Origin: Daphnia pulex
Lineage: Eukaryota; Arthropoda; Branchiopoda; Diplostraca; Daphniidae
Length of the DNA stretch: 64,000 nucleotides
NCBI RefSeq assembly: GCF_021134715.1
Contig: NC_060023.1
Coordinates: 1,984,001 to 2,048,000, forward strand
Direction: 5' to 3'
Made by a program: the position numbers and the translations under genes. How positions within the stretch are numbered: the stretch's first letter is position 1; every line of letters starts with the position of its first letter. This document shows, piece by piece, positions 652-30,089 of the stretch. The notes below the pieces were generated by a model that searched no databases, was not told the DNA's origin, and worked only from the letters and a program-made list of their open reading frames with translations.

Positions 652-3600
652 CTAGATGAATATTCCGCTGCCAGGAGCTCCATTTCTAGCTGAACGTCCC
701 ATTGCTTGCTCCTCAATCCGCTCATTTTTCGGTAAAAAGGTCAGACAAATGTGAAGCCCTCCGTTCTTTCTGAGTTTTTCGCTGATTTTTATGTTAGTCC
801 CTCGTCCGGCCAAATTGGTGGTAACGATGACGTGACCAACCTCCAGTGATTGACTTTCGAAAGCGAATTTCTCGAAGTCACGCGTGTAGCAATGGATGTT
901 ATCGGCATTGATTAATTCAGAACTTTTCAAGCTTTTGTGAATGAGGTTAACGGATTTGATGGAGTGACAAAATATGACGACGGAACGAGCCTCATGGCGA
1001 TCGGTAGTAAGAATTGTCTGCTCAGTTTCCTTGATGATGGTTTTCAACCAGGTTTCTTTTGATTTTAATACCTTCGGTGGTTTAAGATGAAAGCGTTTTT
1101 CGAAAGCTGTCGGAATGACGAAATAAAGGCATTTATAATTTCTCTCCATGAAGGTTCGATCGGTTTTAGTCCCCAGCGTACCGGACACTCCGGCTAGTTT
1201 TTCGTATTTCTTCATGTAGGTCGCGTTGGAAATAAAAATGGTTTTGAGACTTTGAAGTGTCAACTTGCAACCTTCCTTCAGCTGAATAAATTGATGAAGG
1301 GCTTCGTCCCACTGGGTTGAAATTTGGTCAGTCCCCGTGTCCGGATCGATGATAATTACTTGTGGATTAAGATCTGGACTTGTATCAGTTCGATCTTGGT
1401 CGACAACGTAGTCCTTGTCGATTTCTAGTTCCAGAGCATGAAAAGCGTTGTCTATCCAAGAGTTTAGGTGTCGATCGACGAAGGGCATCAAATGGTCGGG
1501 TATTCGGATGTGACGCTCGCGTTCTGCAACTTTGCGGAAATAAAAGGCGATCTTGGGGTTTAGATTTTCTTGATAATTGATTTTCTGGATTCCGTTTTTC
1601 ATTAACAGGTGCCCTTCTGCGTCGATGATTTTGTCTTCGATTAGATAGTTCCATAGTGCGTTCGTTTCTGATGGGTTGTCTTCTAATTGAGCGTGAATTG
1701 ATTTCAAATCTTCCTTGGTTATTGCCCCGTAGAGATCGTAAAGGACGGCCTTTTTAACAGACTCTTTCAGGATTGAATCATCTGTTTCGATGGAAGAAGT
1801 GCAAACTTTTTCCCAAATGAAAACGTAAACTGATTCTAGCGTCTCCATGCCCGGGATATCGTGCGACAGATAGAGAGTATTGTTGCCGCGGTCGAGCAGC
1901 ATGCAGTCTACTTCGTCAATAATAACAAGGTCCATCGTTCGATCACCTCGAATGTTATGATGGTAGAAGTAGTCCATCAGATAATCTCGCTGGAAGTTGG
2001 CCAGCTGTCCGTAGACGACGGTTGCATTGTAGGCTTTGGTTCGGTTGTGAACCGATTGACTGCAATTGTTTGCAACGCTAATATTGAAATATTCGTAGAG
2101 GTTACGCATGCCACCATCGGCCACGGATAAATTGGAATCGCGAAGGGCTAGCATGTCGTTACTGGTGATGACGTCAATTTTTTGGTTTTTGTTTTCTTTA
2201 TTTCGTGAAAGAGCAAATGCAATTGCAACTCCAGTGACGATGAGAGACTTGCCCTCGCCAGTTGATACTTGAGTCAACGTGGTTGTTCTTTTGTGTATTA
2301 GTAAAGTCGTCATAGCCACTCTCTGTGTGTCGCGTAGTTGGAATTTATGTTCATCACCTTTATTCGTACATATCTGCTGTACAGCGTAATCGTAAACGTA
2401 GAGAAACTCGACTACCGATTGGTCATTCAGTTCTAAACCAGTTGTCTGCCACTTGTTTATTAGTTTCTTTATTTTGCGTTCTTCTATATTTTCTGACTGT
2501 AATTTGGATTCTCCAACTTTAATTTTTATATCACTCAGCATTCTGGTGTATTTATTCTGCTTCAGTTGGTTTTCATTTATGATGTCATCCATCATTATTG
2601 ATATGATCTCTTCCACATTTCTTTGTGCAGGTTTTTGGTAGGGGTTGTTCTTGCCCGGATACAGATTATCGTGTAGTTTAGTTACAATTAACTTCAAGTC
2701 TTCCATTTCTTCAATCAATTCGTCACCAAATCCATTTCCTTCTTTAAATTCCAGTTCCAATAACATGTGGATGGCCTCTTTCTTTAGTTTTTTGTGCTCT
2801 TTTTCTTTCGGATCACTCGATAGTTGATCAAATTCCGTATGCCACATTTTGCTTTTCAGCTCGTAAATCCAACCAATTAACGGAAGTTCCTGGAGCTCTA
2901 AAAATTGACGCTTGTCAATAATCTTTGTATCGAATGTCGTTACTAGCAACCTCAACAGCGGCACAAATTTTTCTAGATCCAAAGCCGAATCGCTGTCTGT
3001 TTCCGCAATTTTATTTTTTATTGAAGCCACCCCAATTAACATTCGATCATCTATATCACATAGAAAACTAAGTGGTAACTTGCTTAAGTCTTCATCAATA
3101 CGAACCGTTGCCCGTCGATTGAAAAGTTCCAGCATTAAAAAACAGCATTTCCATTCTTGTGGGTGATATTTTTTGACGATACTTAAATAGAAGATTGGGC
3201 TAATGTTTCGGTTGTTGTATTCCAATACAGCCTCAGCCAAATAGCAAAGATCTTGTGCTAGTGCTATTGAATGATCATCCGTCATCTCTACATCGCCCTC
3301 TTCGTCTTCTTTTTCTGATGCTATTGGATGATCATCCGTCATCTCTACATCACCCTCTTCCTCTTCGTCGTCTTGTTTTGAATATTTCTTTAAACGTTGT
3401 AACAGCAATCGAAATAATTCGTCTGGAGTATCCCCATTTTCCGGGTTCAAGTTCTTGAGAGCGGTGATGACATCCTCGCTCGTGTGGTGTGTTTCTAGCC
3501 ACTCCATCAACATTTGAAAGGAATCTGTTTGGATGGGCTGAGACTCAAATAAATCACGATCAAGTGTTTTGCAGAATTTTTCTAATTTTAAATTAGCTTC

Positions 3601-6600
3601 TAGACGCTGCCATTCGCTAATTCCATCATACAAAATGAAGTGTTGGTTGTGTCTGCCAGAATTTAAAGTTACTTTGAATTTGAATGAATAAATTGATTCC
3701 TCTTCATAGACGTGAATTGTTAGACAGTGAATTTCTGCCAACATTTTCAATTCGGTCAAGTCCAGCGCACTGGAAGGTGACTCAACAAATTTTGCGTATT
3801 CCAGAAATAATTCCTCGGATTCGTCGTCTCCTTGCCAGTTGAATTTATCTTTTTCGTCACTCGTTAGTAAGGTGTAAGCGGCTTTTTTGCGGCAGGCGAC
3901 GGGGAAATCTGATTCATAGCTATTTATCATTCGCAAAACGAAGTGTTCGACGAAAGTCGAGATTTTGGTTTGATTTTCTCTATTCCGGATGAATTTGGCG
4001 AGACGCTGGCGAAGCGTATTCGTATTATTACACACATACAGCCCGTTTGAATTTACTCGTCCGAAAATACAGTGGAGGACGTTATTGACACCGCCAACCG
4101 TCGGCAGAACATCTAAACACCGAACATCGACGGGTGGTTCCGACCGGAAATCAACAGGGCGGCGTCCAATTATTCGTCCATGGGGCAAGGGAGGGGAAGT
4201 GTCAAGAGCATAGTTAACATCGTCGGTTTTCGTTTTCAATGCTGGTTTGACAAATTTTACAGACCCAATCTTTTCTAAACCCTGATGATATTGGGATAAC
4301 AGCTGATGAAGTTGAGCCTCCTTGTATTCCATTTGATCGATCAATTCATCGATGCTACTTGATTTGAATTCCAGCGGGTTGGATAACAACGTCTGGAATG
4401 ATTCCATCATTAGTTTCTTTTCATTTACTTGGGCTAGGTATTGAGTGAGATTTTCGCGAACGTTGGCCTTTTTCTTTACAGCTGCCAAGTGTAATGGCTG
4501 GACTTGGGCGAATTTCCGGTCATCACAAGGAACAATTGACGCATACATAGTCTTATTTAATTTAGCATAAAAATTGATCTTTGGGTCATATTCCTTTCTA
4601 GTAGGTTTCTCTTCAGTACATTCCATTTTCAATCTAACGTCATTATCAAAGCCTATGTAATTGCCTACCAAATTATCCTCTGCCGACTTCAGTGATGTGT
4701 CGAGGTTGTGAATGAATCCGACGTCACCGAACGGTATTCCCATAAAACCGTCGGTACCCGTTGCCTCGTAGACACCCATCCGTACAGCTGTTGCTTCGCG
4801 CTGATCCTTTCCGACGAATGGAACTTGGTGTCCTTTCAAAAACGTTTCTGGACCCCCCGTACATTCGAATTTGATGGTACCACCAAATCCACCTTCACCT
4901 GGCCCATGTTTGCTTCCTATTGGAATAAATGTGGTTAACTTGTAGCCGAAAATAATCATTTTGTAAAATTATAGTGTATGTATTACCTTGACAAAAAATG
5001 AGTGTTTGTCGTTTCGTCATTGAACGATAAAATGAAGCCGTGATCGTACTACCGTCTTTCGCTATGCCTTTGATGAAAAAACTATCAGTGTGATCGGCTT
5101 GGATATCTGTACCTTCTGTACGATTTTGTTTTGGGACGATCTTTTCTAGCGTTTCCAAAACGGCTTTCATTGCGTTCTCGGAATGAGGAATAGTGCCGTG
5201 TTCCTGTTTCTCTCCCTTGGTATCAAACGTCGACATGGAAGGAAAAACTTTTTCAAATTTTTCTTTGGACCATTTCTGAATTTCCCTGTCTGGCCCGATT
5301 TCAACATCGCCGCTGTTCAGCCTGTCACTTCCGTCACCACCGTCACACACTATCGTCCATCGTTCGGCGTTGATGATCTCGTCGTAAATGATGTGCACAT
5401 TTCCGCCGCTCTCACCCGCTTGATCAGTTCCAAGTCCCTCTATTTGAGAAAGCAGCTTCGAATTAACTTTGTTTCATTATTAGAATAATTATTGAAGAGA
5501 TAAACTCACCCGCCACTTTGTCATTGCCATTTTTGCCAGAGACATCCCATAAAACGTTATCGCGGTCGACATACAGATTGTGGGTGACGACGCTGACATT
5601 TATTCCGTGCCAGTCTTTTGATTCCAAATCGCAGTCGACGTGAACGGATGTCAATCCCACAATTTGGATTTCCTGTACACGGTCACTGGAATGATCGTGG
5701 TTAAGTTTCAACATTTCCTGTATAATTTTACTGATAAAAACGGTGGTCCCGTAAATGAAGATGATTTTTCTTCCGTCCTCGTCCTTGAGGTTGATTTCAG
5801 TTTTCATTGGTAACAAGAGTTTCTTGCAGAACTCTTTGGTCAACAACTGCAATCTCGGCGTCCACTCTTTTTCTGATTGCAGAAGATCAAAGCATTGAGG
5901 TAATTCCTTTTCTATGGCATTGCTACTAATTGCAATAATTTCCACCAACTTGTTGACAAAATCTTGCCCAGTTTGGTCCTCATTTTCCCATCCAGAAATG
6001 TTTTCTTCCAAAATTTTTTGTACCCTGATGTCTTCATCAGCGACTCGGAAGAGCTCGTTCAAAGCGAAAATGAAATTGAGGTTTTTCTCTCCGCTGGTTT
6101 CCTCTTTGGCGATGTCGTTCAGGCACCGGGAAAATATTTTCTCTGTGCACAAAGTCTTGAATTGTTTCAAATAGCTCGAAACCAGAATAACGAAACGGGG
6201 CATGGTACTAAACAGATCCCTCTGCTCAAGTATCAACTGAAGATATTGACACTTGAAATGTGGTGACTCATCTAATGGACCTCCGTCGCACCAATACTTC
6301 AGTCTTGATGTCGCTCCGTTGAGTTTCGAACGAATATCTTCGAAGCAGTTAATTGAATTCAATTCGTCCAAAATGACGGACATTTCCGTACTTATATCTG
6401 TTGCTTCATCCTCTAGGTATTGAAAAGCTCTTTTTAAACTCTCTCGCAACCACATTTCCAGTACGATTTTGACGTACTGCCTCTCCACCCAAGTTGCTTC
6501 CAAACAAAACAGGTCACGCTTCACTTTTGATTTAATGTGAGCAACGGCATAGCCGTATAACTTGGCAGAATCGCTAGACTGAATCCAGCTTTTAATCTCG

Positions 6601-9965: not shown

Positions 9966-10516
9966 TGAACCTACGATGGAGGATGACGTAATCAACTAAT
10001 GGAGTTCACTCGAAGGTTAGAATCATTTTCCAGCTCTTTTGCTTTAATAATTTTTGCTGTTGCAAGAATGGACGTGTTGCATCCGTGAATAGTGATTTTG
10101 ACGAAATCTTTTTTTTTGTGGTTCTTATTGCCAATCGATAATACGACGCGCTGTAAGTGAATCACATTTTATTCTTGAGAAATTAACAGTATCTTTTGTA
10201 CGAAGTGTGATGGTAACCAGTGACGTAGTTGTCCATTTAGTCCAGTATTAACATTTTTACAATTTTTGAGAACTTATTGACCCAGATTCAGAAAAGAGGT
10301 TTCTAAAAAGGCTCAACTGTGTGCACATCATTAAATGAATACAGATTAATCATGTGTTTGAAATTTAGCTAAGGTTGCAGAGAAATATTTAAAAAATAGC
10401 CGACTGCTGTCCTTCAAACGGTTCGAAATGGAAGATTTATTCATTCACCGAAGAAACGAGTCAAATGACTCAGATGTCAATTGGTTAAAAAGTGAGTTTT
10501 AAGCCGTAACCATTTG

Positions 10517-10600
10517 GTATTCATTTTGATGTATTCATTTTGATGTATTCATTTTGATGTATTCATTTTGATGTATTCATTTTGATGTATTCATTTTGAT
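10517..10600 (+). repeat. 14-bp tandem array, six units
   Basis: Six perfect head-to-tail copies of GTATTCATTTTGAT. The mirror array in the right arm (22,347-22,388) has only three. The copy difference accounts exactly for the 42-bp shift in palindrome symmetry outside it. Confidence 0.95.
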
Positions 10601-10615
10601 ATTGGTTGTTGTAGA

Positions 10616-11030
10616 CCCATCCCCAGCGCCTTCTACCTGCAGAAGGAAAGGCCAGTTTTCCTTCACGCTCGAAGGTCACGGAGATCATTACGTAAAACGT
10701 TAGTTTTTCAAATTTGGTTATTTTAATGTTTTATCTATATTTTGTGTGCTGTAGAGGTTGGGTGCATGTCCTTCCCGCTCGAAGGTCACGGAGATCATTA
10801 CGTAAAACTTGTCATGCAGTGGTGTAAGAGGTTGGGTGAGAACGAGACGTGTTACATCCATTTTGTTTTGTTTTTAATATTGGTTATTGTAGACCCATCC
10901 CCAACAACGTCAACCTGCAGAAGGAAAGGCCAGTTTTCCTTCAATTGAAGGTCATGGAGATCATTACGTGTCATGCAATGGTGAAGAGGTTGGGTGCGAA
11001 CGACACGTGTTGCACCATTATCAAGCAGGT
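10616..11030 (+). promoter_or_regulatory. Repeated upstream boxes with AGGTCA half-sites
   Basis: Two word blocks recur: GACCCATCCCCA followed by CTGCAGAAGGAAAGGCCAGT (near 10,616 and 10,892), and GAAGGTCA(C/T)GGAGATCATTACGT (10,671, 10,781, 10,947). AGGTTGGGTG recurs as well (10,755; 10,830; 10,987). AAGGTCA is the half-site of monomer-binding nuclear receptors such as FTZ-F1, so molt-linked control of the downstream repeat-protein gene is possible; that is inference. The block lies just upstream of a TATA promoter. The mirror copy is at about 21,917-22,331. Confidence 0.5.
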
Positions 11031-11074
11031 AAAATAGCCGCAAGACTTAGGGGGTGAGGGTGAGAAAAAAATCG

Positions 11075-11109
11075 TATAAAAGGAGAGAGAAAATGCCACA
11101 GAAATCAGT
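11075..11109 (+). promoter_or_regulatory. TATA plus initiator core promoter
   Basis: TATAAAA at 11,075 and the arthropod initiator TCAGT at 11,105, 30 bp apart, followed by a 5' leader and ATGG|GTAAGT at 11,171. It would drive the first, decayed copy of the repeat-protein family. Confidence 0.65.
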
Positions 11110-11170
11110 CGAGTGAGGATCTCCGACACGGCAACAACTGCTCTCTTCGTTTTAATATCAGTTTGCAATC

Positions 11171-11352
11171 ATGGGTAAGTATTCAACTTTATATCGAGCC
11201 GTGAATCAATTCTATATTTTTTTTTAGTTGTATATGACCAGTTATGTTCGAAAACTAATTTACAAATCGTTGATTGTTTAGTTGATAATGGCGTTGGGTT
11301 GCTGTCGGGTGTTGTATCGTTGATGCCGAGCCCGAAAGAGAGAAGGCGATAG
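11171..11352 (+). pseudogene. Decayed copy 1 of the tyrosine-rich repeat-protein gene
   Basis: Mini-exon ATGG (11,171-11,174), GTAAGT donor, acceptor TTTAG at 11,281, then MVDNGVGLLSGVVSLMPS, which matches the signal peptide of the intact gene at 12,502 (MVNYGVLLLYVVSLMAGS). After 23 residues it runs into TAG. The sequence right after the signal peptide is a duplicated 5' leader (GATAGAAATCAATCGAGTG versus CACAGAAATCAGTCGAGTG), so an unequal deletion joined copy 1 to the leader of copy 2. Confidence 0.7.
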
Positions 11353-11699
11353 AAATCAATCGAGTGGGCATCTCTGACACGGCAACTGCACTCTTGGTGT
11401 TATTACCAGTTCTCAATCAGGGGTAAATATTTTGTATTTTTAAATGGAGTTTTATATCAATTTCTATTTCCTTTCTATGCATTAATATGTCCGATTATAT
11501 TGAACATTGTCTGGTAAACTATGCCGTCGTGCTGCACTACACACAACAACTGATGCTGCTCCGAGCTACTAAACCGAAGCCTCGAAGTATTATTCTTCCC
11601 CGAGCTACGCTACCAAAGCGCACAGGTGCTACACCAACGAGTCTCCCAAGTACTACTCTGCTCCCAGCTACTACACCGAGGTATCTGAGTATTAACCTC
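11353..11699 (+). pseudogene. Decayed copy 2 of the tyrosine-rich repeat-protein gene
   Basis: The leader is duplicated, but the mini-exon start ATGGGTAA has become AGGGGTAA and the acceptor CTAG has become CTGG. The repeat part survives in pieces (SPKYYSAPSYYTEVSEY then TAA) with an internal stop (GAGCTACTAAACC, serine-tyrosine-stop). It is a pseudogene of the same family as 12,502-13,097. Confidence 0.7.
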
Positions 11700-11765
11700 G
11701 TGTTGAAGAATCTAGTCAAGTTATTTGACGCAAGTTGCTTAATGGGAAAATTTCTTACATTTAGC

Positions 11766-12420
11766 CAAAAGTAACGGTCTGAAGGTGCTCAAAGTTTTTG
11801 CTGAGGACGGTATTAGGTCGAGTCCTCCCTAAATGAGCGAATGGACAACCGAGAAGTTGAATGCGGAAAGTGTTAATGCGTTGCCCAAAGCTAATGTTGA
11901 GGGTGCAAGCTTGGAAGACAATAAGGTTCCATTGATCTTTAACAATGGTCGAAAGGTAAACAGTTATTTCAATACATGTTTTGTTAGCGATGTAAATTAT
12001 TTCATCAGGTTTAAACTGGCCATGTTGTCGTTGCTGTTGGTTTGAACGCAAACACGGATTTGGCTGTCGCTTCTGATTTGGAAATCGATTCCAATTTTGG
12101 CAGTTATCGAGTCAATGCTGAGCTTGAAGCAGATCAAACGTCTGGTTGGTAAGAATCCTTGAACATTTTTCATTTCATATTAATTTTAATACAGTTTGTG
12201 ATAATCAACATCGACTGCTCTGATATTGCTAGATAGTGTATGAAGTTTTTGTAAAGTAATATTACACCTTTGGTGGTAAATTTAGATTCTAAATTTTGTT
12301 TTTATTAAGCTAGAGATGCTGCCTGCTTTTATGATATGAAATTGCATCGTCGTCGTGTGGAACATCATGACCACGCTGTTGTATCAGGGCGATTGGCTAG
12401 AGAGCATATGATTGGCAATG
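11766..12420 (+). pseudogene. Three-exon fragment of AIFM1 (apoptosis-inducing factor)
   Basis: Three exons of the mitochondrial flavoprotein AIFM1 can be read in order with introns kept. Exon a (about 11,772-11,955) holds MSEWTTEKLNAE and NNGRK. Exon b (about 12,009-12,150) holds [16 protein letters not shown] and [16 protein letters not shown]. Exon c (about 12,309-12,420) holds [11 protein letters not shown] and [17 protein letters not shown]. The flavin-binding AGD motif is ARD here. In-frame stops occur at the SEWTTEK junction (CCC TAA ATG) and at the second codon of exon b (GTT TAA). No N-terminal or C-terminal AIF exons are present, so this is an inert genomic fragment wedged between copies of the repeat-protein gene. 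The family assignment is from remembered motifs and is strong. Confidence 0.85.
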
Positions 12421-12501
12421 CATGCATGCAACATGGGTGAAGGACTGCAGCGCAATATTTGTCACTATCTGCATTCTTAGTCGTATTTTCAGTACGCAAT
12501 C

Positions 12502-13097
12502 ATGGGTAAATATTCTATTATCTAGAGTTTTGTATCAATTTATTTTTTTTCTCAGTTTTAATATGCCAGTTATTGAATGTAAATGTTCTAATAATTTACC
12601 ATCTAGTTAACTATGGCGTCTTGCTGCTGTATGTTGTATCGTTGATGGCTGGGTCAACCATTGGTGTACCGATGTCTCCTGGGTATTGCAGATACCAAGC
12701 CGCAACGCCGCCGCCTTCCTACACAACAACAACATACGCAAAGACCGGTTACCACACCACCAAGGCTGCAGAATATTACACCACAACTTATGATGCCCCG
12801 GGCTACTACATCGAAGCCTTGAAGTATAACTCTGCCCCGAGTTGCCTCAACAAAGAGGCTGAGTACTACACCACCAAGGCACCGGAGTACTACAGCACCA
12901 AGGCGGCGGAGTACTACAGCACCAAGGCAGCGGAGTACTACAGCACCAAGGCAGCGGAGTACTACAGCACCAAGGCAGCGGTGTACTACAGCACCAAGGC
13001 AGCGGAGTACTACAGCACCAAGGCAGCGGAGTACTACACCACCATGTATGCTGTCTCAGCCTTTTACACCGAGGTTTCCAACTACTACTGTGCCTAG
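12502..13097 (+). CDS. Secreted tyrosine-rich repeat protein (YYSTKAAE repeats), left copy
   Basis: Mini-exon ATGG at 12,502-12,505, intron GTAAAT...CTAG, exon 2 from 12,607 to the TAG at 13,095-13,097, phase 1: 164 residues. It starts MVNYGVLLLYVVSLMAGS, a signal peptide, so the product is probably secreted. The body has about seven 8-residue units YYSTKAAE encoded by 24-bp tandem repeats (about 12,850-13,045), flanked by YYTTKAPE and APGYYIEALKYNSAPS units. The composition (Y, T, K, A, P) fits structural proteins of cuticle, egg shell or silk-like matrices; I know such repeat proteins from Daphnia gene lists, but no function. The frame ends early: the following 0.5 kb still encodes the same repeats with stops, so this may itself be a truncated gene. 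Confidence 0.6.
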
Positions 13098-13628
13098 CTA
13101 CTACACCGAAGCTCCAGCTATTACACCACCAAAGCGGTAGAGTACTACACCGAAGCGCCCAAATTCTATCTGCCCGAGCTACGAAACTACATTTGTGGAG
13201 GCCCAGTACTACGTAGTACCTACTTACTACACAGTGAATGATCCTTAATACTACGTTGGACCGAAATACTGCTCTGAGTCTACAGTTTACTACACCACAA
13301 CCTACGCTGCCCCTAGCTACTAAACCAAAGGCGCTAAGTACTACACCGAAAAGGCCGAATATTACCCAATGACGTATGCTGCCCAAGTTTACTACACAGA
13401 GGAACCCAAGTTCAACTCTGATCCAACCAACACCAAACAGAGGATCCGTTTTACTACACCACCAAGGCTCCTGAGTATCACAATGCAACCTACGCTGGTC
13501 CCAGTTACTACTCTGAAGCTCCAAAGTATTACTCTGCCCCGAGTTACTACACCACTAAAGCATTTGGATATTAAACCCCGACAGTCTACGCTTTTTCAGT
13601 TTACGAGAGAAAGTCTCCTAAATACTAG
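13098..13628 (+). pseudogene. Decayed 3' part of the repeat-protein gene
   Basis: Beyond the stop at 13,097 the three frames still show family units (YYTTKAVEYYTEAPKFY, PFYYTTKAPEYHNATYAGPS, SYYSEAPKYYSAPSYYTTKA), broken by several stops and frame changes, ending FSVYERKSPKY then TAG at 13,626. A polyadenylation signal AATAAA lies at 13,716. The ancestral gene therefore probably encoded more than 300 residues. Confidence 0.65.
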
Positions 13629-14085
13629 CCGAAATTTCAGTTTGATTTAATTGTGTTCAGTTTTGTCGGTCATATCATACTAGTCACTGGTATTGTGGTT
13701 GTTCTTAAATGAGAAAATAAATATTTTAATGACGGTAATCTTCAATCATGTAAGACTTCTCTTTACACCTCCAAGCCATTGCGATGGGATTTAATTTCAA
13801 ATGTGGTGGAGTGACTTGCTCTAGTCGCTCTGCATTCGGAAACTTTCTGGTGCTTGGAAAAACTCCATTTTCAGGTTAAATTACGAAAGACTGTTAAGGG
13901 TTTACTCTAAATTAGTGAAGTTTGTATTTTCAACTCAAGTCACTTGACAAAACTTAAAGTAAATGTAAAACTTCAAAGTTGTAAGACAAAACATTAAAAG
14001 GAATTGCTTTGTTATCCCACCTCCACCCACAATTCCACCACATTTTACAATCACATACATACATATATACATACACTTACGTTAA

Positions 14086-14350
14086 CCCGTTGGCTGCCAC
14101 GCCATACAACCCGTAGGTTGCTCTCTACTACTCTACGCGCCACGTCTGAAGGATCCATGACCAAAGGTGGGACTTGCCATTGCTGACAAGTCCGTGCTGA
14201 CAAGGGGGGGACTAAGGTGCATTGCCTTATAACAGGCTTGCCTTGCGGCAAATTTTGGGCTTGGCGACTCTCCGACCCCGCGGCTTGTAAACCACGAGAC
14301 CGAACAGCGCGGCCCGTGCAGGGGAGAACAAAGGCGTGGCAGACAACGGG
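14086..14350. mobile_element. piggyBac-type MITE, left-arm copy
   Basis: The 265-bp element starts CCCGTTGGCTGCCACGCC and ends GGCGTGGCAGACAACGGG, terminal inverted repeats of 18 bp with one mismatch. It is flanked on both sides by TTAA (14,082-14,085 and 14,351-14,354). The TTAA target and CCC...GGG ends are the hallmark of piggyBac elements. It encodes no transposase, so it is non-autonomous. GC content is clearly above its surroundings. Confidence 0.85.
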
Positions 14351-14703
14351 TTAACTAACACTAACACAAACGTAGTAATACCAACAATACGATGATCCAC
14401 GTTGATGACGAGTCTCGGTGTCGGTCGCGATTCCACCGAGTTATGTTCGCACCAGGAGCAGGGGCAACATCCGACGGAGACCGGTGACGACTGTTAAAGA
14501 TGACAATATCCATCTTCTCGACGTCTCCTCTGCATTACCTGAATAAAAACAAAACAATTCTTATTAAGTTACATGCCAATAAAAGTTACATAATAGTCAC
14601 ATAATACATATAAGTTCATTGATATGGTTTTTTTGCTCAAAACTTCAAAGGCGCACTTTAAATTGCTTAAAATCTACCTAACAATGTTGAGAACTGTACA
14701 CAT

Positions 14704-15094
14704 AACAAAGCTCACTTGCTAGTCTTTAAAAAAAATTCCGGAAGTAGACCGGAAGTAACCACAGCGCCTCAACCATTGAGCTGTCATCAAATTAAACCAC
14801 ATTTTCGTGATCCCCATGAAATTTGGGGTCGATTAGGTGTGATATAAACGAAATCCAAAATTTGGCCAAAATCGAGAATTTTCCTGAACTATATATAGTT
14901 CAGGAAAATTTTCAAAACCGGAAGTACGCGTACGTAAAAAACACAACATGAACTTTACCACAAATTTTACGAGGATCACGAATATGTGTTTCTTTTGTGC
15001 GTCAGATCAATATTTACTAAACTACTGAAAGAAATGAGAAAACCGGAAGTAGAAAAAAAACACATTTTTAAAAATCTAACAAGTGAGCTTTGTT
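14704..15094. mobile_element. 391-bp MITE with a central hairpin, left-arm copy
   Basis: The ends AACAAAGCTCACTTG and CAAGTGAGCTTTGTT are exact reverse complements, and similarity continues inward (TAG/TTAG, A-rich, then CCGGAAGTAGA and its complement). The centre has a second hairpin, TTTTCCTGAACTATATATAG and its complement (about 14,879-14,912). Four CCGGAAGT words (ETS-like) occur inside. No coding capacity. Confidence 0.75.
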
Positions 15095-15355
15095 GGGGAA
15101 ATAGTTATCGTTAGTTATCACTAAATATTTCAACAAAATAACTGCCAATAAATGTTTAAAAAGATGTGCAAAGTAACTGAAACTGACTGTTTTGACAGCT
15201 GCAAACTTTTAAAAAGCCATCTAGCGTTACAAAAAAGAAACGTCCAAGTAAAACTTTGTTTGCGCGCAAAAAGGGCCTGATTTTGGAATTATTACACAGA
15301 CACAGAGTTTGACGCAACTAGATAACTAGTAGATAACCTACGAAAATAAGTCAAC

Positions 15356-16543
15356 TTTTCGGGTACCTGGGCATAATCCCGTGGTGAGTGACGGCAGGTG
15401 TGTCACAGCAACTGAAGGATCCAACTCGCCAGTGAAGCAAGAAAAGTTATTTTGCAGCATAAGAAGCACTGAAGCAGTGAAGCTAGATGAGCGTACGTCG
15501 GGAAGATAAGGATGGAGAAGAACGTTGGTGGAAGTCCATCTTCCGTCATGGACAAAGGGCAGCATTGGCTTAAGGATCTCTTACTTGCTCTGTAAAAAAA
15601 ATGTATTACATTAATGAAAATATAACAGTTAATAAAGCATGACAATCTTTACCTTTAGTCCTTTACGAAGAAGCACACTGAAATTTTCATGATAAAAACC
15701 GTAAAAATGGAATCAGAGCAACCAACAGCATTACTACTCCCCATGTTGAGATTTCCTGATGCTAAAGAAAGTGTCATGAAGTGTTGCAGTACCATGGTGA
15801 TAGGTGGTTTATGCTTACCTTTATCATATGGGTGATGAATTTAGTAAGGCATCAAACAGAACTGGAACATGTATGCATACACACGGCATTTTCACGTCAC
15901 ACTCTTCATGTCACTGAAACTCTAAGTAGCAATGGGGCAAGGAAATTCTCTACATTATTTACAATTTTTACAAATAAACCTATGAGAAATATAACTCTAC
16001 CTATCTATCAGCTGGGTTGCCTTCTGAACAGAAGTAGAAACAGCCATAACAACAAACATGCTGTTGCAGGTTACACCACCAAAATTGCGAGATTCAGAAA
16101 AGATCCTATGGTTCATGAGCAAGAACACCTATATGTTACATGAAAATCTGAATTGTAATGGTCTGGTAGCAGTAATGGGAAATACCTTATCTCAGCAGAT
16201 TTGTATTCACATGAGCTTCAAACATTGGTTTTAGGCTTTTGACAGCATGATGGGTCTAATGGATTGATATTTGATAGTGACTGAGCGCTAAGTGAACTTG
16301 TTGGAATGACTGACAGTATCCATCTAAAATTTGAAGAAATTAGTTGGTACAGTATAAAAATAAGGAAATTAGGTCAAGATAAACCTACATATGATATGAA
16401 GTTCAATTTGGTATGTGAAATCACAGGAATATAAGTATTAATTGGCATCCAATTGTTTCGCCCATTTCCCCTCGTTTCACGATGTAAAATAACAACAAGG
16501 CGACACTGGCGACATCTAGTAATGAGTTTTGAAATTGGTTGCA
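15356..16543. repeat. Inner, diverged segment of the left arm
   Basis: From about 15,356 the two arms stop being near-identical and differ at many sites while still aligning end to end (for example CAACGTTCTTCTCCATCC against CAACGTTCTGCTCCATCC on the coding-like strand). It holds a 75-codon frame (15,565-15,338, minus; VLLHPYLPDVRSSSFTA), matched by 17,386-17,601 on the plus strand, that I do not recognise. About 300 bp (15,858-16,157) is absent from the right arm. Confidence 0.75.
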
Positions 16544-16695
16544 CAGTCGCAGCTCAAATTATCGGAGTTCTATTGTCGCGTTTCGAGTTCTACTGTCGAG
16601 CACTGGAGTTCTATTGTCGGGTATTTTAAATTAAAAATTAAATATTGGGGTTCTATTGTCGGTGGAGTTCTATTGTCGGGTATTTTTAATAATAT
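16544..16695. repeat. Palindrome spacer with five direct 12-mer repeats
   Basis: GTTCTATTGTCG occurs at 16,567, 16,608, 16,650 and 16,667, and GTTCTACTGTCG at 16,587, all in the same direction, usually preceded by GGA and followed by GGTATTTT. The arms meet the spacer at TTGGTTGCA (16,535) and TGCAACCAA (16,696). Confidence 0.9.
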
Positions 16696-17857
16696 TGCAA
16701 CCAACTTTGGATTCAAATCTCGTTACTAGATGTCGCCAGTGTCGCCTTTGTTGTTGTTACGTCGTGAAACGAGGCAAAAATGGCGAAACAAATTGTAGCT
16801 AATTAATACTTATATTCCTGAGATTTCATATACCAAATTGAACTTCGTATTATAAGTAGGTTTATCTTGACCTAATTTCCTTATTTTTATACTGTGCCAA
16901 CTTATTTCTTCAAATTTTAGATGCTTAATGTCAGTCATTCCAAAAAGTTGACTTCTAAGCGCTCAGTCACTTTCCATCCAATAGACCCATCATGTTGTCA
17001 AAAGCCTAAAACTCATGTTTGAAGCTCACATATCGTGGAATACAAATGTGTGGAGACAAGGTATTTCTCCATTACTGCTACCACACCAACCATGTCAAAT
17101 GCCTTACTAAATTCACCCACATGATAAAGGTAAGCATCAATATAACCTATCACCACGCTACTGCAATACTTCATAACAATTTCTTTGGCATCAGGAAATT
17201 TACCTCAACCTAAGGAGTAAAGCTGTTGATTGCTGTGATTTCCATTTTTGCAGTTTTTTATCATGAAAATCCTCAGTGTGATTCTTAGTATAGGTAAAGA
17301 TTGAAATGCTTTATTAACTATTATATTTTCAATTCATTAATGCATTAAATTTTTTTTACAGAGTATGTAATAGATCCTTAAGCCAATGCTGACCTTTGTC
17401 CATGAAGGAAGAGGGACATCCAGCAACGTTCTGCTCCATCCTTATCTTCCCGACGTACGCTCATCTAGCTTCACTGCTTTTGCTGCTACAACTTGTCTTA
17501 CTTCACCGACGAGTTGGAACACTTCAGTGGTCGCTACCCTTTGCTGTTACACACCTGCAGTTACTCACCACGGGATTATGCCCAGGTACCCGAACAATTG
17601 ACTTATTTTCGTAGGTTATCTACTAGTTATCTAGTTGCGTTAAACTCTGTGTCTGTGTAATAATTCCAAAATCAGGCCCTTTTTGCGCGCAAACAAAGTT
17701 TTACTTGGACGTTTCTTTTTTGTAACGCTAGATGGCTTTTTAAAAGTTTGCAGCTGTCAAAACAGTCAGTTTCAGTTACTTTGCACATCTTTTTAAACAT
17801 TTATTGGCAGTTATTTTGTTGAAATATTTAGTGATAACTAACGATAACTATTTCCCC

Positions 17858-18243
17858 AACAAAGCTCACTTGTTAGATTTTTAAAAATGTGTTTTTTTTT
17901 CTACTTCCGGTTTTCTCATTTCTTTCAGTAGTTTAGTAAATATTGATCTGACGCACAAAAGAAACACATATTCGTGATCCTCGTAAAATTTGTGGTAAAG
18001 TTCATGTTGTGTTTTTTACGTACGCGTACTTCCGGTTTTGAAAATTTTCCTGAACTAGTTCAGGAAAATTCTCGATTTTGCCCAAATTTTGGATTTCGTT
18101 TATATCACACCTAATCGACCCCAAATTTCATGGGGATCACGAAAATGTGGTTTAATTTGATGACAGCTCAATGGTTGAGGCGCTGTGGTTACTTCCGGTC
18201 TACTTCCGGAATTTTTTTTCAAGACTAGCAAGTGAGCTTTGTT
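17858..18243. mobile_element. Hairpin MITE, right-arm copy
   Basis: Mirror of the 14,704-15,094 element, 386 bp. The central hairpin reads GAACTAGTTC where the left copy has GAACTATATATAGTTC, a 6-bp change exactly at the hairpin tip. Confidence 0.75.
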
Positions 18244-18596
18244 ATGTGTACAGTTCTCAACATTGTTAGGTAGATTTTAAGCAATTTAAAGTGCGCCTTT
18301 GAAGTTTTGAGCAAAAAAACCATATCAATGAACTTATATGTATTATGTGACTATTATGTAACTTTTATTGGCATGTAACTTAATAAGAATTGTTTTGTTT
18401 TTATTCAGGTAATGCAGAGGAGACGTCGAGAAGATGGATATTGTCATCTTTAACAGTCGTCACCGGTCTCCGTCGGATGTTGCCCCTGCTCCTGGTGCGA
18501 ACATAACTCGGTGGAATCGCGACCGACACCGAGACTCGTCATCAACGTGGATCATCGTATTGTTGGTATTACTACGTTTGTGTTAGTGTTAGTTAA

Positions 18597-18861
18597 CCCG
18601 TTGTCTGCCACGCCTTTGTTCTCCCCTGCACGGGCCGCGCTGTTCGGTCTCGTGGTTTACAAGCCGCGGGGTCGGAGAGTCGCCAAGCCCAAAATTTGCC
18701 GCAAGGCAAGCCTGTTATAAGGCAATGCACCTTAGTCCCCCCCTTGTCAGCACGGACTTGTCAGCAATGGCAAGTCCCACCTTTGGTCATGGATCCTTCA
18801 GACGTGGCGCGTAGAGTAGTAGAGAGCAACCTACGGGTTGTATGGCGTGGCAGCCAACGGG
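18597..18861. mobile_element. piggyBac-type MITE, right-arm copy
   Basis: Mirror of 14,086-14,350 with the same terminal repeats and flanking TTAA. It was inserted before the arm was duplicated or converted, because both copies sit at the same relative site. Confidence 0.85.
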
Positions 18862-19318
18862 TTAACGTAAGTGTATGTATATATGTATGTATGTGATTGT
18901 AAAATGTGGTGGAATTGTGGGTGGAGGTGGGATAACAAAGCAATTCCTTTTAATGTTTTGTCTTACAACTTTGAAGTTTTACATTTACTTTAAGTTTTGT
19001 CAAGTGACTTGAGTTGAAAATACAAACTTCACTAATTTAGAGTAAACCCTTAACAGTCTTTCGTAATTTAACCTGAAAATGGAGTTTTTCCAAGCACCAG
19101 AAAGTTTCCGAATGCAGAGCGACTAGAGCAAGTCACTCCACCACATTTGAAATTAAATCCCATCGCAATGGCTTGGAGGTGTAAAGAGAAGTCTTACATG
19201 ATTGAAGATTACCGTCATTAAAATATTTATTTTCTCATTTAAGAACAACCACAATACCAGTGACTAGTATGATATGACCGACAAAACTGAACACAATTAA
19301 ATCAAACTGAAATTTCGG

Positions 19319-19849
19319 CTAGTATTTAGGAGACTTTCTCTCGTAAACTGAAAAAGCGTAGACTGTCGGGGTTTAATATCCAAATGCTTTAGTGGTGTAG
19401 TAACTCGGGGCAGAGTAATACTTTGGAGCTTCAGAGTAGTAACTGGGACCAGCGTAGGTTGCATTGTGATACTCAGGAGCCTTGGTGGTGTAGTAAAACG
19501 GATCCTCTGTTTGGTGTTGGTTGGATCAGAGTTGAACTTGGGTTCCTCTGTGTAGTAAACTTGGGCAGCATACGTCATTGGGTAATATTCGGCCTTTTCG
19601 GTGTAGTACTTAGCGCCTTTGGTTTAGTAGCTAGGGGCAGCGTAGGTTGTGGTGTAGTAAACTGTAGACTCAGAGCAGTATTTCGGTCCAACGTAGTATT
19701 AAGGATCATTCACTGTGTAGTAAGTAGGTACTACGTAGTACTGGGCCTCCACAAATGTAGTTTCGTAGCTCGGGCAGATAGAATTTGGGCGCTTCGGTGT
19801 AGTACTCTACCGCTTTGGTGGTGTAATAGCTGGAGCTTCGGTGTAGTAG
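19319..19849 (-). pseudogene. Decayed 3' part of the repeat-protein gene, right copy
   Basis: Mirror of 13,098-13,628 with the same stops and frame breaks. Confidence 0.65.
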
Positions 19850-20445
19850 CTAGGCACAGTAGTAGTTGGAAACCTCGGTGTAAAAGGCTGAGACAGCATA
19901 CATGGTGGTGTAGTACTCCGCTGCCTTGGTGCTGTAGTACTCCGCTGCCTTGGTGCTGTAGTACACCGCTGCCTTGGTGCTGTAGTACTCCGCTGCCTTG
20001 GTGCTGTAGTACTCCGCTGCCTTGGTGCTGTAGTACTCCGCCGCCTTGGTGCTGTAGTACTCCGGTGCCTTGGTGGTGTAGTACTCAGCCTCTTTGTTGA
20101 GGCAACTCGGGGCAGAGTTATACTTCAAGGCTTCGATGTAGTAGCCCGGGGCATCATAAGTTGTGGTGTAATATTCTGCAGCCTTGGTGGTGTGGTAACC
20201 GGTCTTTGCGTATGTTGTTGTTGTGTAGGAAGGCGGCGGCGTTGCGGCTTGGTATCTGCAATACCCAGGAGACATCGGTACACCAATGGTTGACCCAGCC
20301 ATCAACGATACAACATACAGCAGCAAGACGCCATAGTTAACTAGATGGTAAATTATTAGAACATTTACATTCAATAACTGGCATATTAAAACTGAGAAAA
20401 AAAATAAATTGATACAAAACTCTAGATAATAGAATATTTACCCAT
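19850..20445 (-). CDS. Secreted tyrosine-rich repeat protein, right copy
   Basis: Exons 20,445-20,442 (ATGG) and 20,340-19,850 encode the same 164-residue protein as the left copy, with no residue difference in the 174-codon frame containing exon 2. The two genes point toward each other across the palindrome centre. Such complete identity, next to an inner arm that has diverged, suggests recent copying or gene conversion (inference), or an assembly duplication. Confidence 0.6.
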
Positions 20446-20526
20446 GATTGCGTACTGAAAATACGACTAAGAATGCAGATAGTGACAAATATTGCGCTGC
20501 AGTCCTTCACCCATGTTGCATGCATG

Positions 20527-21181
20527 CATTGCCAATCATATGCTCTCTAGCCAATCGCCCTGATACAACAGCGTGGTCATGATGTTCCACACGACGACGA
20601 TGCAATTTCATATCATAAAAGCAGGCAGCATCTCTAGCTTAATAAAAACAAAATTTAGAATCTAAATTTACCACCAAAGGTGTAATATTACTTTACAAAA
20701 ACTTCATACACTATCTAGCAATATCAGAGCAGTCGATGTTGATTATCACAAACTGTATTAAAATTAATATGAAATGAAAAATGTTCAAGGATTCTTACCA
20801 ACCAGACGTTTGATCTGCTTCAAGCTCAGCATTGACTCGATAACTGCCAAAATTGGAATCGATTTCCAAATCAGAAGCGACAGCCAAATCCGTGTTTGCG
20901 TTCAAACCAACAGCAACGACAACATGGCCAGTTTAAACCTGATGAAATAATTTACATCGCTAACAAAACATGTATTGAAATAACTGTTTACCTTTCGACC
21001 ATTGTTAAAGATCAATGGAACCTTATTGTCTTCCAAGCTTGCACCCTCAACATTAGCTTTGGGCAACGCATTAACACTTTCCGCATTCAACTTCTCGGTT
21101 GTCCATTCGCTCATTTAGGGAGGACTCGACCTAATACCGTCCTCAGCAAAAACTTTGAGCACCTTCAGACCGTTACTTTTG
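20527..21181 (-). pseudogene. AIFM1 fragment, right copy
   Basis: Mirror of 11,766-12,420 with the same three exons and the same in-frame stops, so it decayed before the arms were made identical. Confidence 0.85.
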
Positions 21182-21247
21182 GCTAAATGTAAGAAATTTT
21201 CCCATTAAGCAACTTGCGTCAAATAACTTGACTAGATTCTTCAACAC

Positions 21248-21776
21248 GAGGTTAATACTCAGATACCTCGGTGTAGTAGCTGGGAGCAGAGTAGTACTTG
21301 GGAGACTCGTTGGTGTAGCACCTGTGCGCTTTGGTAGCGTAGCTCGGGGAAGAATAATACTTCGAGGCTTCGGTTTAGTAGCTCGGAGCAGCATCAGTTG
21401 TTGTGTGTAGTGCAGCACGACGGCATAGTTTACCAGACAATGTTCAATATAATCGGACATATTAATGCATAGAAAGGAAATAGAAATTGATATAAAACTC
21501 CATTTAAAAATACAAAATATTTACCCCTGATTGAGAACTGGTAATAACACCAAGAGTGCAGTTGCCGTGTCAGAGATGCCCACTCGATTGATTTCTATCG
21601 CCTTCTCTCTTTCGGGCTCGGCATCAACGATACAACACCCGACAGCAACCCAACGCCATTATCAACTAAACAATCAACGATTTGTAAATTAGTTTTCGAA
21701 CATAACTGGTCATATACAACTAAAAAAAAATATAGAATTGATTCACGGCTCGATATAAAGTTGAATACTTACCCAT
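21248..21776 (-). pseudogene. Decayed copies 1 and 2 of the repeat-protein family, right arm
   Basis: Mirror of 11,171-11,699: copy 1 at 21,776-21,595 (signal peptide, then stop) and copy 2 at 21,594-21,248 (lost start and acceptor). The core promoter mirror (TATAAAA, TCAGT) is at 21,872-21,838. Confidence 0.65.
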
Positions 21777-22741
21777 GATTGCAAACTGATATTAAAACGA
21801 AGAGAGCAGTTGTTGCCGTGTCGGAGATCCTCACTCGACTGATTTCTGTGGCATTTTCTCTCTCCTTTTATACGATTTTTTTCTCACCCTCACCCCCTAA
21901 GTCTTGCGGCTATTTTACCTGCTTGATAATGGTGCAACACGTGTCGTTCGCACCCAACCTCTTCACCATTGCATGACACGTAATGATCTCCATGACCTTC
22001 AATTGAAGGAAAACTGGCCTTTCCTTCTGCAGGTTGACGTTGTTGGGGATGGGTCTACAATAACCAATATTAAAAACAAAACAAAATGGATGTAACACGT
22101 CTCGTTCTCACCCAACCTCTTACACCACTGCATGACAAGTTTTACGTAATGATCTCCGTGACCTTCGAGCGGGAAGGACATGCACCCAACCTCTACAGCA
22201 CACAAAATATAGATAAAACATTAAAATAACCAAATTTGAAAAACTAACGTTTTACGTAATGATCTCCGTGACCTTCGAGCGTGAGGGAAAACTGGCCTTT
22301 CCTTCTGCAGGTAGAAGGCGCTGGGGATGGGTCTACAACAACCAATATCAAAATGAATACATCAAAATGAATACATCAAAATGAATACCAAATGGTTACG
22401 GCTTAAAACTCACTTTTTAACCAATTGACATCTGAGTCATTTGACTCGTTTCTTCGGTGAATGAATAAATCTTCCATTTCGAACCGTTTGAAGGACAGCA
22501 GTCGGCTATTTTTTTAATATTTCTCTGCAACCTTAGCTAAATTTCAAACACATGATTAATCTATATTCATTTAATGATGTGCACACAGTTGAGCCTTGTT
22601 AGAAACCTCTTTTCTGAATCTGGGTCAATAAGTTCTCAAAAGTTGTAAAAATATTAATACTGGACTAAATGGACAACTACGTCACTGGTTACCATCACAC
22701 TTCGTACAAAAGATACTGTTAATTTCTCAAGTAAAAAATGG

Positions 22742-24537
22742 GTTACAAGAAATATTGACAAAAAACAAGTAAGAAAAGTTGAATAAGCGACAAGTAATTC
22801 CTGATTGATGATTCCTGTGGCCACACAGGAATCAGAAAATCTGTCAAACAAGGAATGATGCAGGCACATCTAACTAGAAGAAAAAGTAGGCCTAATAACC
22901 TGAATGGAAACAAGTATCAAAAATTGGACAATCCAAACCACAAGTACTTCATTCAGAAGCCATACCATACCTATATCCAAAGCTAGTGCCCCAATATGGC
23001 CCAATAACTTCTACCAACTTCATACCACCAACTCCATAACCTACATAAAGATAAAAGAACAATCAGTTAGAAATCAACACTAACAAAGATTAAATAACAC
23101 AAGATCACCTAATATGAAACTGAAACGCCAGAAACCGAACTAATCCATAGCAGTCCAGCGGCGTTCCCGTAAATCCTTCATTGCATGCTTTGACATTGAG
23201 ATATGAGTAGATAAGTAATGATAAAGAATATATAGGAACAGATTGCCAGGAATATTACATAGGGTTATAATCATCAAGTGGAGTTAGGAATCTGTTAAGG
23301 TGTCTGTTTAGGGAGCAAGGACTTGTATGATTTATGACGCATGACATTTTCAGCTAATGACTTGGTGTATTGCAACGGCGGAGTGCAAATCGGCCCTGTT
23401 GTACTACATGCCACTGTCCAGTTTCACTAAAAACAAAGACTATTACAAACTGTCAGCGTAATCTTACTCCCTGTATGAAAACGCAGTGCGGAGTCCAGGA
23501 ATAGTTAACACTTCCGTTAAGACCATTTAACAGAACTGTAGGCTGTGACCTAATTTGGTTGAGGAGGATAGCGAAAGTTCTACCAACCGCATTAATCTAA
23601 ATGAGAAAAAAAATAGAAAATTTTAGTTTAAAAAATAATACAAGATTGGAAACGCTGATTTGGAAGTGACTAGGGTCATTGATGGAAGCGTTGTCCGAAT
23701 TCGAGTAAGTCTTGACGAGCGCGAGATAAATTGCTTGTTCCAAAGATCGCTGCGCCGAGTTTAGAGCGGGGTAACATCAGGTGAAGTAGCTTCTCAACAA
23801 TCAATACTTCGATACTCCTACTCGATTCCACCTAGCACATCATCAAAAACATGGACATCAAAATAATTATACAGACTTTCCGTTTCACAAAAAAAATCAT
23901 TAAACTCGACATTTGTTTTCCTAATATCTTTTCTTCACTTGGGGGAAGTAAAATGTCACAAGCACGATTGTGTAAAATATTTTTTTAGTTTTTTCCCGTT
24001 TCCTCATTTATCTTAAATATACTTGTCAGAAAGAGATGATGATTGCAGTTATGACTAAAGTTCTCACCTCCTTTTTTCAATGGTTCTGCTAATTATTTTG
24101 GGTATAGTAAGTGAAGATCAATAATAAATCTGTCGGGATTATTACTTTTTTTTTTCTTTTTCAAATTCTGATTCCGTTTCTTATTGAATAGTTGTAAAAT
24201 CCGAATACAGATGGCGATAAATTCAATTAATGCCAAACGTTATGTAGCCTAAGCAACTAAGAATGCGAGTCATGCTGACGATGGTGCTGACTAGCTGTCA
24301 CTTTTACTAACGTCGTCCGTACCGAAACCCGTAACTTTCTCTCGTTTATGACATTTATCTTCTTTATAGTGAGCGCTGCTAGTCCTATACAAAGTGGGTC
24401 CAAGGTAAAATCACACGGGTAAAAAGAGAAAGCTGTGTTATACAACAGATAGAAAGCAGAGGATCCTTTATAACGACAAAATTTCCCACTAAAGTGCAGT
24501 CAGTGTGTTCGAGTCGGTTAAAACGCGCATAGCAACA
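22742..24537. other. Intergenic, no supported gene
   Basis: AT-rich. One minus-strand stretch near 23,045-22,950 has an acceptor (TTATGTAG), an open piece (GYGVGGMKLVEVIGPYWGTS) and a possible donor, but no partner exons that I could join. The sulfotransferase leader occupies the last part (about 24,400-24,537). Confidence 0.45.
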
Positions 24538-29218: not shown

Positions 29219-30089
29219 TCAATGAAGTTTAACGGAAATGTGGCAAGAGCAAGCCGATGGCAGTTTGTAAATGTCAATGAAAATTCCCTTTTTGGCATCG
29301 CAAGGATCGAAGGACAACATGCGCTGGTAGACGTACTTTTGCAAGCATTTGCTGCCATAGCAAGGAGCCAAAGTGCGGCAAGGGGAGCCGGAGAACAAGC
29401 AAGTCTCAACACGTTGGGTCTGCGTGTATCCCGGCCAGGCGATATCTTGAATGATGGCACGCCATTCACCGTCAACGTTCAGAGCGCGCAGAGGGCGGGC
29501 GTAATGGACATTGCTGGGACAAATGTATCCTTCCTCGCCAATCCAGTTGGCCTTCTCGAAAGTCTTGCCCGTGTAGTTGGAGTAGTCGTAATGTTTCTCC
29601 GATAAAGATGTCAGTCCATCGACCAAGTTGTCGGCCGACTGTTTGGCAATATCATAGTACCTCTGCAGCACCAACGGGTCGTACTTGATGGCACTCTGAA
29701 AGCAGGTAATGATTTTAATTAATCATCTGGGAATAATAAGATAAAATTTTTATGGGAAATTGGACTTACCCTGATTTCTTTTTCGGGGTATTCTGCGTCT
29801 GTGAGACAGAAAGTTTCAGTGCTGTTTTCCGAACACTTTGGTGCCTTGCGAGGGTTGCAGTTATCGGACGGAACTGCTGGGTAGGCAGGTTTTGAATAAG
29901 TTTGGGGATCAGCATCCGGTTCCGGCACAGCAACAGCTCCAACCAATACGGCAGCCAAACATAGCTAGAATTTGAATGTGATTCACACTTATTATTAGTA
30001 AAACTGCAACAGATCAAAATTTTGTAAAAATATTAAAGAAGGAATCTTCATTAAAAAGTTTGAAAACTACTTACCAATGAAGTTTTCAT
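29219..30089 (-). CDS. Spaetzle-like cystine-knot secreted protein A
   Basis: Exons 30089-30075, 29964-29770 and 29695-29219 (phase 0): 228 residues. The start MKTSLLCLAAVLVGAVAVPE is a signal peptide. The C-terminal domain (RPLRALNVDGEWRAII, YTQTQRVETC, APCYGSKCLQKYVYQRML, YKLPSACSCHI) has the cysteine pattern and YxQxxRVExC and KLPSxCxC signatures of Spaetzle-type cystine-knot ligands, whose best-known member activates Toll. A pro-region with two cysteines (APKCSENSTETFCLTDAEYP) precedes it. It is divergent to its paralogue at 30,670 with 580 bp between starts. I cannot tell whether it is a Toll ligand or a family member with another role. Confidence 0.85.

Follow-up and report, generated by a model that had tools for sequence, protein, structure and literature searches.

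The window (the whole stretch of 64,000 nucleotides that was analysed) holds a 12.6-kb palindrome that our comparisons confirm as real in the sequence. This locus is very probably one of a dispersed set of gene-bearing palindromes, which was duplicated as a unit and whose arms were later homogenised by ectopic gene conversion.

Results

Self-BLAST of the window (E = 0.0, far beyond chance) returned three inverted alignments: an outermost one (10165-10558/22347-22740, 394 bp, 98.2%), a main one (10559-15852/17099-22388, 97.9%) and an innermost one (16159-16533/16712-17088, 86.0%). Among self-BLAST matches of at least 60 bp with E <= 1e-5, the other ~51 kb of the window gave no second inverted pair. 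The arms so delimited agree with the 6.0-6.4 kb of the original prediction, and the spacer that it had put at 152 bp measures 178 bp in the alignments. The coordinates of matching frames, which it held to sum to a constant, are not strictly symmetrical: the sums of matching positions run from 32,905 to 33,245 because of indels, namely a 14-bp tandem array with 6 copies in the left arm and 3 in the right (a 42-bp difference) and a 296-bp segment found on the left only. The parts of the palindrome are the following.

10165..16533, + strand: left arm, 6,369 bp (self-BLAST, MAFFT)
16712..22740, - strand: right arm, 6,029 bp (self-BLAST, MAFFT)
16534..16711, no strand: asymmetric spacer, 178 bp, common to other loci
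15863..16158, + strand: 296-bp segment, left side only, one-sided at other loci too
10559..15310, + strand: homogenised tract of the left arm; 3 mismatches, one 6-bp and one 1-bp indel against the right copy
17642..22388, - strand: homogenised tract of the right arm, with an approximate inner limit
15311..16533, + strand: inner left arm, apparently unconverted, left-type lineage
16712..17641, - strand: inner right arm, apparently unconverted, right-type lineage (outer limit approximate)
10165..10558, + strand: outer left edge, 1.8% divergence from its partner
22347..22740, - strand: outer right edge

The identity of the arms is distributed unevenly. Over about 4.75 kb the two arms match almost perfectly, with 3 mismatches, and this near-identity extends over non-genic sequence too; a few last differences could be hidden by consensus or polishing. 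Over this stretch the palindrome resembles those of the Y type, with inverted arms more than 99% alike around a small spacer; the inner and outer edges do not reach this likeness. The inner 1.2 kb of the arms diverges by 7-17% per 300-bp bin, in addition to the one-sided segment, and divergence peaks at the palindrome centre. At the outer right edge, the part from 22500 to 22740 is 99% alike to the locus C7:1904k vs 97% to the left edge of its own locus.

The arms carry genes and small elements in mirrored positions.

12502..13097, + strand: YYTTK-repeat gene copy, left; exons 12502-12505 and 12607-13097 with an intron between, 164 aa (splice sites by eye, frame checked)
19850..20445, - strand: YYTTK-repeat gene copy, right, identical to the left
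14081..14355, no strand: left copy of a MITE-like element whose inverted ends measure 23 bp
18592..18866, no strand: MITE-like element with 23-bp inverted ends, right copy, identical to the left
14689..15109, no strand: left copy of a MITE-like element in which inverted repeats are nested; mirror at ~17843-18258

Mirror open reading frames at 12573-13097 (+) and 19850-20374 (-) give one translation, and together with the MITE-like repeats at matching places they bear out the earlier claim of mirrored genes and transposons. The YYTTK-repeat frame has a signal-like start. The 164-aa two-exon frame is open in both arms here, but motif-bearing sequence continues beyond its stop, and at other loci the open stretches are short. 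Searches of the window found neither a tRNA nor, at gathering threshold, an Rfam family. Ten reading pieces of the centre and arms showed no transposase domain in Pfam; they gave a low-complexity Cornifin match below threshold (21.5 bits vs a cut-off of 34.8) and two further, weaker matches far under the cut-off. A likeness of part of the centre to piggyBac transposase, noticed by eye, was unsupported by Pfam.

Does this palindrome stand alone in the genome? Palindromic loci number at least 28 across 8 contigs; 16 were read from the DNA itself and 12 inferred from match tables. Their arms contain copies and fragments of the YYTTK-repeat gene family. The loci are thus not gathered in one sex-chromosome region. 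The original prediction is upheld in part; what it missed is the membership of the locus in this dispersed family. The stretch from the left inner arm through the spacer end has counterparts at 19 or more further places (40 of 433 candidates scored). The other family searches scored 28 of 955, 40 of 747 and 40 of 567 candidates, and a partner missing among the matches listed does not mean that it is absent. Neighbouring YYTTK-repeat copies were convergent in 20 of 20 distinct pairs among the matches listed, counted in the first 40 of 98 matches of one search and 40 of 117 of another; among the 117, short matches and additional fragments of arms that were already represented were omitted. In the control, cuticle genes (PF00379), 7 of 76 neighbouring pairs were convergent, a set in which the pieces of one gene were left unmerged and may inflate the same-strand count. 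Not every member has the full structure: three loci read as DNA have a single arm only, and C1:4440k has the gene region in common, with no match seen to the inner module or centre. At C2:898k the arms are alike right up to the centre, where the gap is 20 bp. Several loci match ours from near 10079. We rejected this position as a fixed transposon end, since other loci continue outwards and the shared limit is the break-off point of this locus itself; the limit seen with C7:1904k was rejected on the same grounds.

The relationship between the arms depends on the position along them. We compared left and right topologies for four loci (this locus, C7:1904k, 1742k and 1614k). Near the centre, the left arms of the four loci cluster apart from their right arms; in the outer region, each left arm is sister to the right arm of its own locus. 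The topologies are opposite, and the alternative was rejected in each region (delta lnL 610.7 and 641; AU p 3e-5 and 1e-4). Distances follow the same pattern: in the outer region, the arms within a locus differ at 0/1500, 3/1543, 1/1587 and 11/1621 positions and loci differ from each other by 4.92%, and in the inner region the divergence is 5.31% for same-side arms taken from different loci and 15.21% for opposite sides. Both arms agree at all three loci compared in 257 of 296 variable columns. The arms of an older palindrome are therefore more alike within a copy than between copies, as in palindromes of the Y type. The bin 14874-15173 fits this picture less well: at three loci its left and right versions diverge by 7-11%, although one bin further out the likeness is 97-100%. 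As the trees switch with position, the palindrome is old, and it was duplicated as a unit before its arms were homogenised. That the arms are kept alike by arm-to-arm exchange, as had been proposed, is supported by identity maps, distances and trees. Some loci go against this pattern: the left inner arms of C7:1837k, 1319k, C5:6767k and C2:525k cluster with the right type, as do both inner arms of C2:898k, so that the side types do not hold throughout the family. A full left/right split in an 18-arm tree received mixed support (SH-aLRT 99.3, UFBoot 57).

Discussion

From these comparisons we propose the following history. The ancestor would have been two YYTTK-repeat genes in inverted orientation, pointing at one another from either side of a short asymmetric centre. 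This palindrome was duplicated as a whole unit, as the common left-type and right-type centres show for the C7 set, and at each site the arms would later have exchanged sequence via ectopic gene conversion. At this locus the exchange would span ~4.75 kb, ending ~1.2 kb before the centre and ~0.4 kb before the outer end. The trees show that homogenisation came after duplication, and gene conversion as its agent is the simplest account; the molecular route may have been a folding of the arms, or a pairing of sister chromatids, while breaks were repaired. We think that the mechanics of conversion are the main reason why the palindromic state persists. More tentatively, palindromy might be the heritable default architecture of the YYTTK-repeat family, with each copy, at 28 or more places on 8 chromosomes, homogenising its arms independently, perhaps through centre-promoted folding and repair or hairpin transcripts.

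Dispersal over 8 contigs and a common centre would also suit a giant transposon whose inverted ends are very long, which we consider unlikely: the ends of this copy are out of register by ~84 bp, other copies extend outward into a BTB-domain gene and so lack fixed termini, no target-site duplication was seen by eye at this copy, and the ten pieces tested hold no transposase domain, an autonomous copy elsewhere being possible. Flies have hairpin-RNA loci, and by analogy the palindromes might be kept because transcripts crossing the centre form long hairpin RNAs, which would be a source of small RNAs targeting the gene family. The uniformly convergent pairs among the matches listed and the near-perfect arms flanking a short spacer are consistent with this, but the identity includes non-genic sequence, and we hold such maintenance to be distinctly improbable. 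Slightly less probable still is that each palindrome formed independently when one arm was copied in inverted orientation by fold-back, with no conversion. The short centre gap and alike inner arms of C2:898k are what re-formation predicts, but at the four loci of the topology comparison old, separate inner arms accompany young outer arms, and fold-back is disfavoured there because the inner arm would have been copied too. An assembly artefact, to which the nearly identical ~4.75 kb might point, is the least credible, since a hairpin read would give identity up to the centre, where the arms differ most, two haplotypes joined head to head would give even divergence, the centre is no unique join and recurs at 19 or more other places, the inner arms are separate lineages common to several loci, and an old duplicated palindrome with later homogenisation argues strongly against both forms.

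Homogenisation by conversion would place the locus in a known kind, the arm-converting palindrome, whose behaviour has chiefly been described on sex chromosomes. Most knowledge of arm-to-arm conversion comes from a few palindromes there, in which the effects of selection, absent crossing-over and gene content are confounded. The present family offers many related palindromes with differing tract lengths at different places in one genome. Its left-type and right-type centres, which appear to have escaped conversion at several loci, are a natural internal marker, so that tract length, stop distance from the centre and any bias could be directly measurable. If palindromy is indeed the default architecture, a cyclical parthenogen would carry genome-wide replicates of the 'Y-type' palindrome with no sex chromosome involved. 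In the titles and abstract openings of the literature searched, we found no report of a dispersed, replicated palindrome family in Daphnia, and YYTTK was absent from the top-ranked matches for Daphnia and YYTTK.

Foldback or long-TIR DNA transposons are likewise dispersed palindromic units with a common centre; unlike them, the Daphnia family showed, in what was tested, neither shared precise termini nor a target-site duplication or a transposase. On the mammalian Y, gene-bearing palindromes with arm-to-arm conversion were reportedly described by Rozen et al. 2003, a study that PMC7953838 and PMC7023750 both cite. The family shares with these the near-identical inverted arms, the short spacer and a divergence within palindromes far below that between copies, but its arms are much smaller, it occupies 8 contigs instead of one sex chromosome and it has many homologous copies. 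The W chromosome of willow has two palindromes with 20-kb arms in a single sex-determining region, unlike the dispersed loci here, and resembles them in that conversion is confined to part of the arms and homologous arms occur in more than one palindrome (PMC7023750). A survey of parthenogenetic animals counted 19 palindromes in Adineta vaga and 15-16 in Folsomia candida; D. pulex was not among the species screened. They are gene-bearing and lie outside sex chromosomes like the family described here, and unlike it they are defined by collinear gene blocks (PMC7953838).

Results

Self-comparison of the window resolved an inverted repeat whose arms have the originally predicted lengths of 6.0-6.4 kb. 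Its spacer had been taken as too short and measures 178 bp, and the supposedly constant coordinate sum between mirrored arms shifts with indels. No further inverted pairs were found among matches of at least 60 bp in the rest of the window.

Features of the palindrome
10165-16533: left arm
16712-22740: right arm
15863-16158: 296-bp extra segment of the inner arm, left side only
12502-12505 and 12607-13097, + strand: exons of a YYTTK-repeat gene copy, left arm (splice sites by eye)
19850-20445, - strand: mirrored copy, right arm, identical to the left one
14081-14355: MITE-like element, mirrored in the right arm
14689-15109: MITE-like element, mirrored in the right arm

The arms are 98.2% identical over their outermost 394 bp. 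Across the adjoining ~4.75 kb (10559-15310) they differ by only three mismatches (10662, 14727, 14866), one 6-bp indel and one 1-bp indel, and over the inner 1.2 kb identity is 82.6-92.7% per 300-bp bin. The right outer edge (22500-22740) is 99% like the locus C7:1904k (contig 7, near 1,904 kb) and 97% like its own left edge, so the homogenised tract is flanked by older sequence on both sides; the outer edge resembles the inner one in behaviour.

YYTTK-repeat proteins are typical of Daphnia. Each arm's copy has two exons, a 164-aa open frame and a signal-like start, and visual inspection placed gene fragments at about 11.16 and 11.4 kb. Motif-bearing sequence runs on in other frames beyond the stop, and the window copy may therefore be truncated. 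In an intron-free scan of 11 regions for uninterrupted frames, the longest motif-bearing stop-to-stop stretch was 303 codons, and two regions held none of at least 120.

Elsewhere in the window, which is eukaryotic DNA, an open frame of 1,435 aa on the - strand (652-4959) encodes a SecA DEAD-like helicase domain (PF07517, 2.3e-29). A Spaetzle domain lies at 29219-29674 and an AT-rich tandem repeat (106-bp unit, 2.1 copies) at 61167-61389. GC reaches 60-64% at 44001-45000 and 48001-50000 versus 41% for the window; given a long open frame rich in glutamine and serine at 47656-50346 (- strand), this is probably a host gene and not contamination.

We searched the genome (133,188,837 bases, 13 contigs; window at C7:1984001-2048000). 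With the best 40 of 433 candidates scored, the palindrome centre (16100-16711) had at least 70 matches, and at least 19 places besides the window locus matched through the spacer end. Further palindromic loci match the window arm. DNA was read at 19 loci including the window locus, a non-random sample in which some were picked because match tables suggested inverted pairs: 16 were palindromic and three had one arm only in the stretch read.

Loci read as DNA, with main-arm identity
Identities as given above: window locus
97.6-99.96%, barring stretches at C7:1614k (93.1% and 88.9%) and C7:1904k (inner, 82.8-90.4%): C7:1904k, C7:1742k, C7:1614k, C7:12067k, C7:11590k, C11:3011k, C2:898k, C9:1055k, C1:4440k (match to the window locus confined to the gene region)
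95.1-98.8%: C7:1319k, C7:173k, C7:267k
93.1-99.8%: C10:2545k, C5:351k, C2:4661k
One arm only: C7:1837k (14.4 kb read); C5:6767k and C2:525k (~3.5 kb each)

Six of the eight best centre matches by score, window locus included, are palindromic. Twelve more convergent pairs from match tables, without DNA reading, bring the total to 28 palindromic loci on eight contigs (C1, C2, C4, C5, C7, C9, C10, C11), 14 of them on C7. C7:1837k lacks the right arm, yet a stretch flanking C7:1904k is present in reverse orientation at C7:1847341-1847597, as if one arm was lost. Two convergent family arms ~55 kb apart, C7:11319612 (+) and 11376455 (-), are perhaps a palindrome split by insertion.

Neighbours closer than 12 kb were convergent in 10/10 pairs among 40 inner-arm places and 13/13 among 40 gene places, giving 20 distinct pairs after merging (three loci were common to both lists). 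For the control Chitin_bind_4 cuticle family (PF00379; 150 scored places), 76 pairs comprised 64 same-strand, 7 convergent and 5 divergent (Fisher p 4e-15; the 20 YYTTK-family pairs share descent and thus are not independent events). Cuticle genes of this type also lie directly beyond the right arm of two palindromes, C7:1614k (gene at C7:1627945-1628136) and C7:1742k (gene at C7:1755270-1755461).

We aligned the arms of the window locus, C7:1904k, C7:1742k, C7:1614k, C7:1837k and C2:898k. In the outer region (10974-12473), arms within a locus differed at 0/1500 positions (window locus) and at 3/1543, 1/1587 and 11/1621 (other loci), versus 4.92% between loci whichever sides were compared. In the inner region 15474-15862, four loci showed 43/374, 62/367, 61/367 and 61/367 differences between their own arms; between loci, same-side arms differed by 5.31% and opposite sides by 15.21% (5.31% versus 10.47% at 16159-16533). 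C2:898k is the exception, its arms being alike up to the centre (0/399 and 3/374).

The outer tree joins the two arms of each locus as sisters. Among the 18 arms of the inner tree, those of left type from six loci cluster, including the extra-segment-bearing side of C7:267k; the left inner arms of C7:1837k, C7:1319k, C5:6767k and C2:525k and both of C2:898k sit among right-type arms, and the full left/right split has mixed support (SH-aLRT 99.3, UFBoot 57). For eight arms of four loci, the pair tree was rejected in the inner region (delta lnL 610.7, AU p 3e-5) and the left/right tree in the outer region (delta lnL 641, AU p 1e-4). Over 10974-14873, both arms agreed at all three of the window locus, C7:1742k and C7:1614k in 257/296 variable columns. 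The homogenised tract of C7:1904k is shorter: the bin that begins at 12774 has 93.2% identity, down from 99.0%. At C2:898k, C7:1742k and C7:1614k, arm-to-arm differences cluster in 14874-15173, inside and just inward of a self-complementary MITE-like element, and in the adjacent bin on the outer side the arms are almost the same; this clustering counts against a simple single tract.

Discussion

The distances and trees show that the palindrome is older than its copies: an ancestral palindrome was duplicated together with its asymmetric centre, and each locus later homogenised its own arms separately. Judged from this pattern, ectopic gene conversion would be the simplest agent. Re-formation of palindromes by fold-back is disfavoured at the four loci tested, since it would have duplicated the inner arm as well; it may have occurred at C2:898k. 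A hairpin-read or haplotype-join artefact is disfavoured, as it predicts a different identity profile and a unique centre; assembly polishing could conceal a few last arm differences, but could hardly convert several-percent divergence into identity.

The window copy breaks off at ~10074-10079 and 22740-22747, and C7:1904k, C7:1837k and others extend farther outward, at C7:1837k into a BTB-domain gene (E 1.3e-19) that is also present on one side of other loci. Since neither common termini nor a target-site duplication were seen at the window copy, dispersal of the unit looks like segmental duplication, a reading based on this copy and few other ends.

Arm conversion like that proposed here is a feature of mammalian Y palindromes. 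It is also described for willow W-chromosome palindromes (PMC7023750). Compared with these systems, the window palindrome is smaller, dispersed and replicated. D. pulex was not among the species screened in a palindrome survey of parthenogens (PMC7953838).
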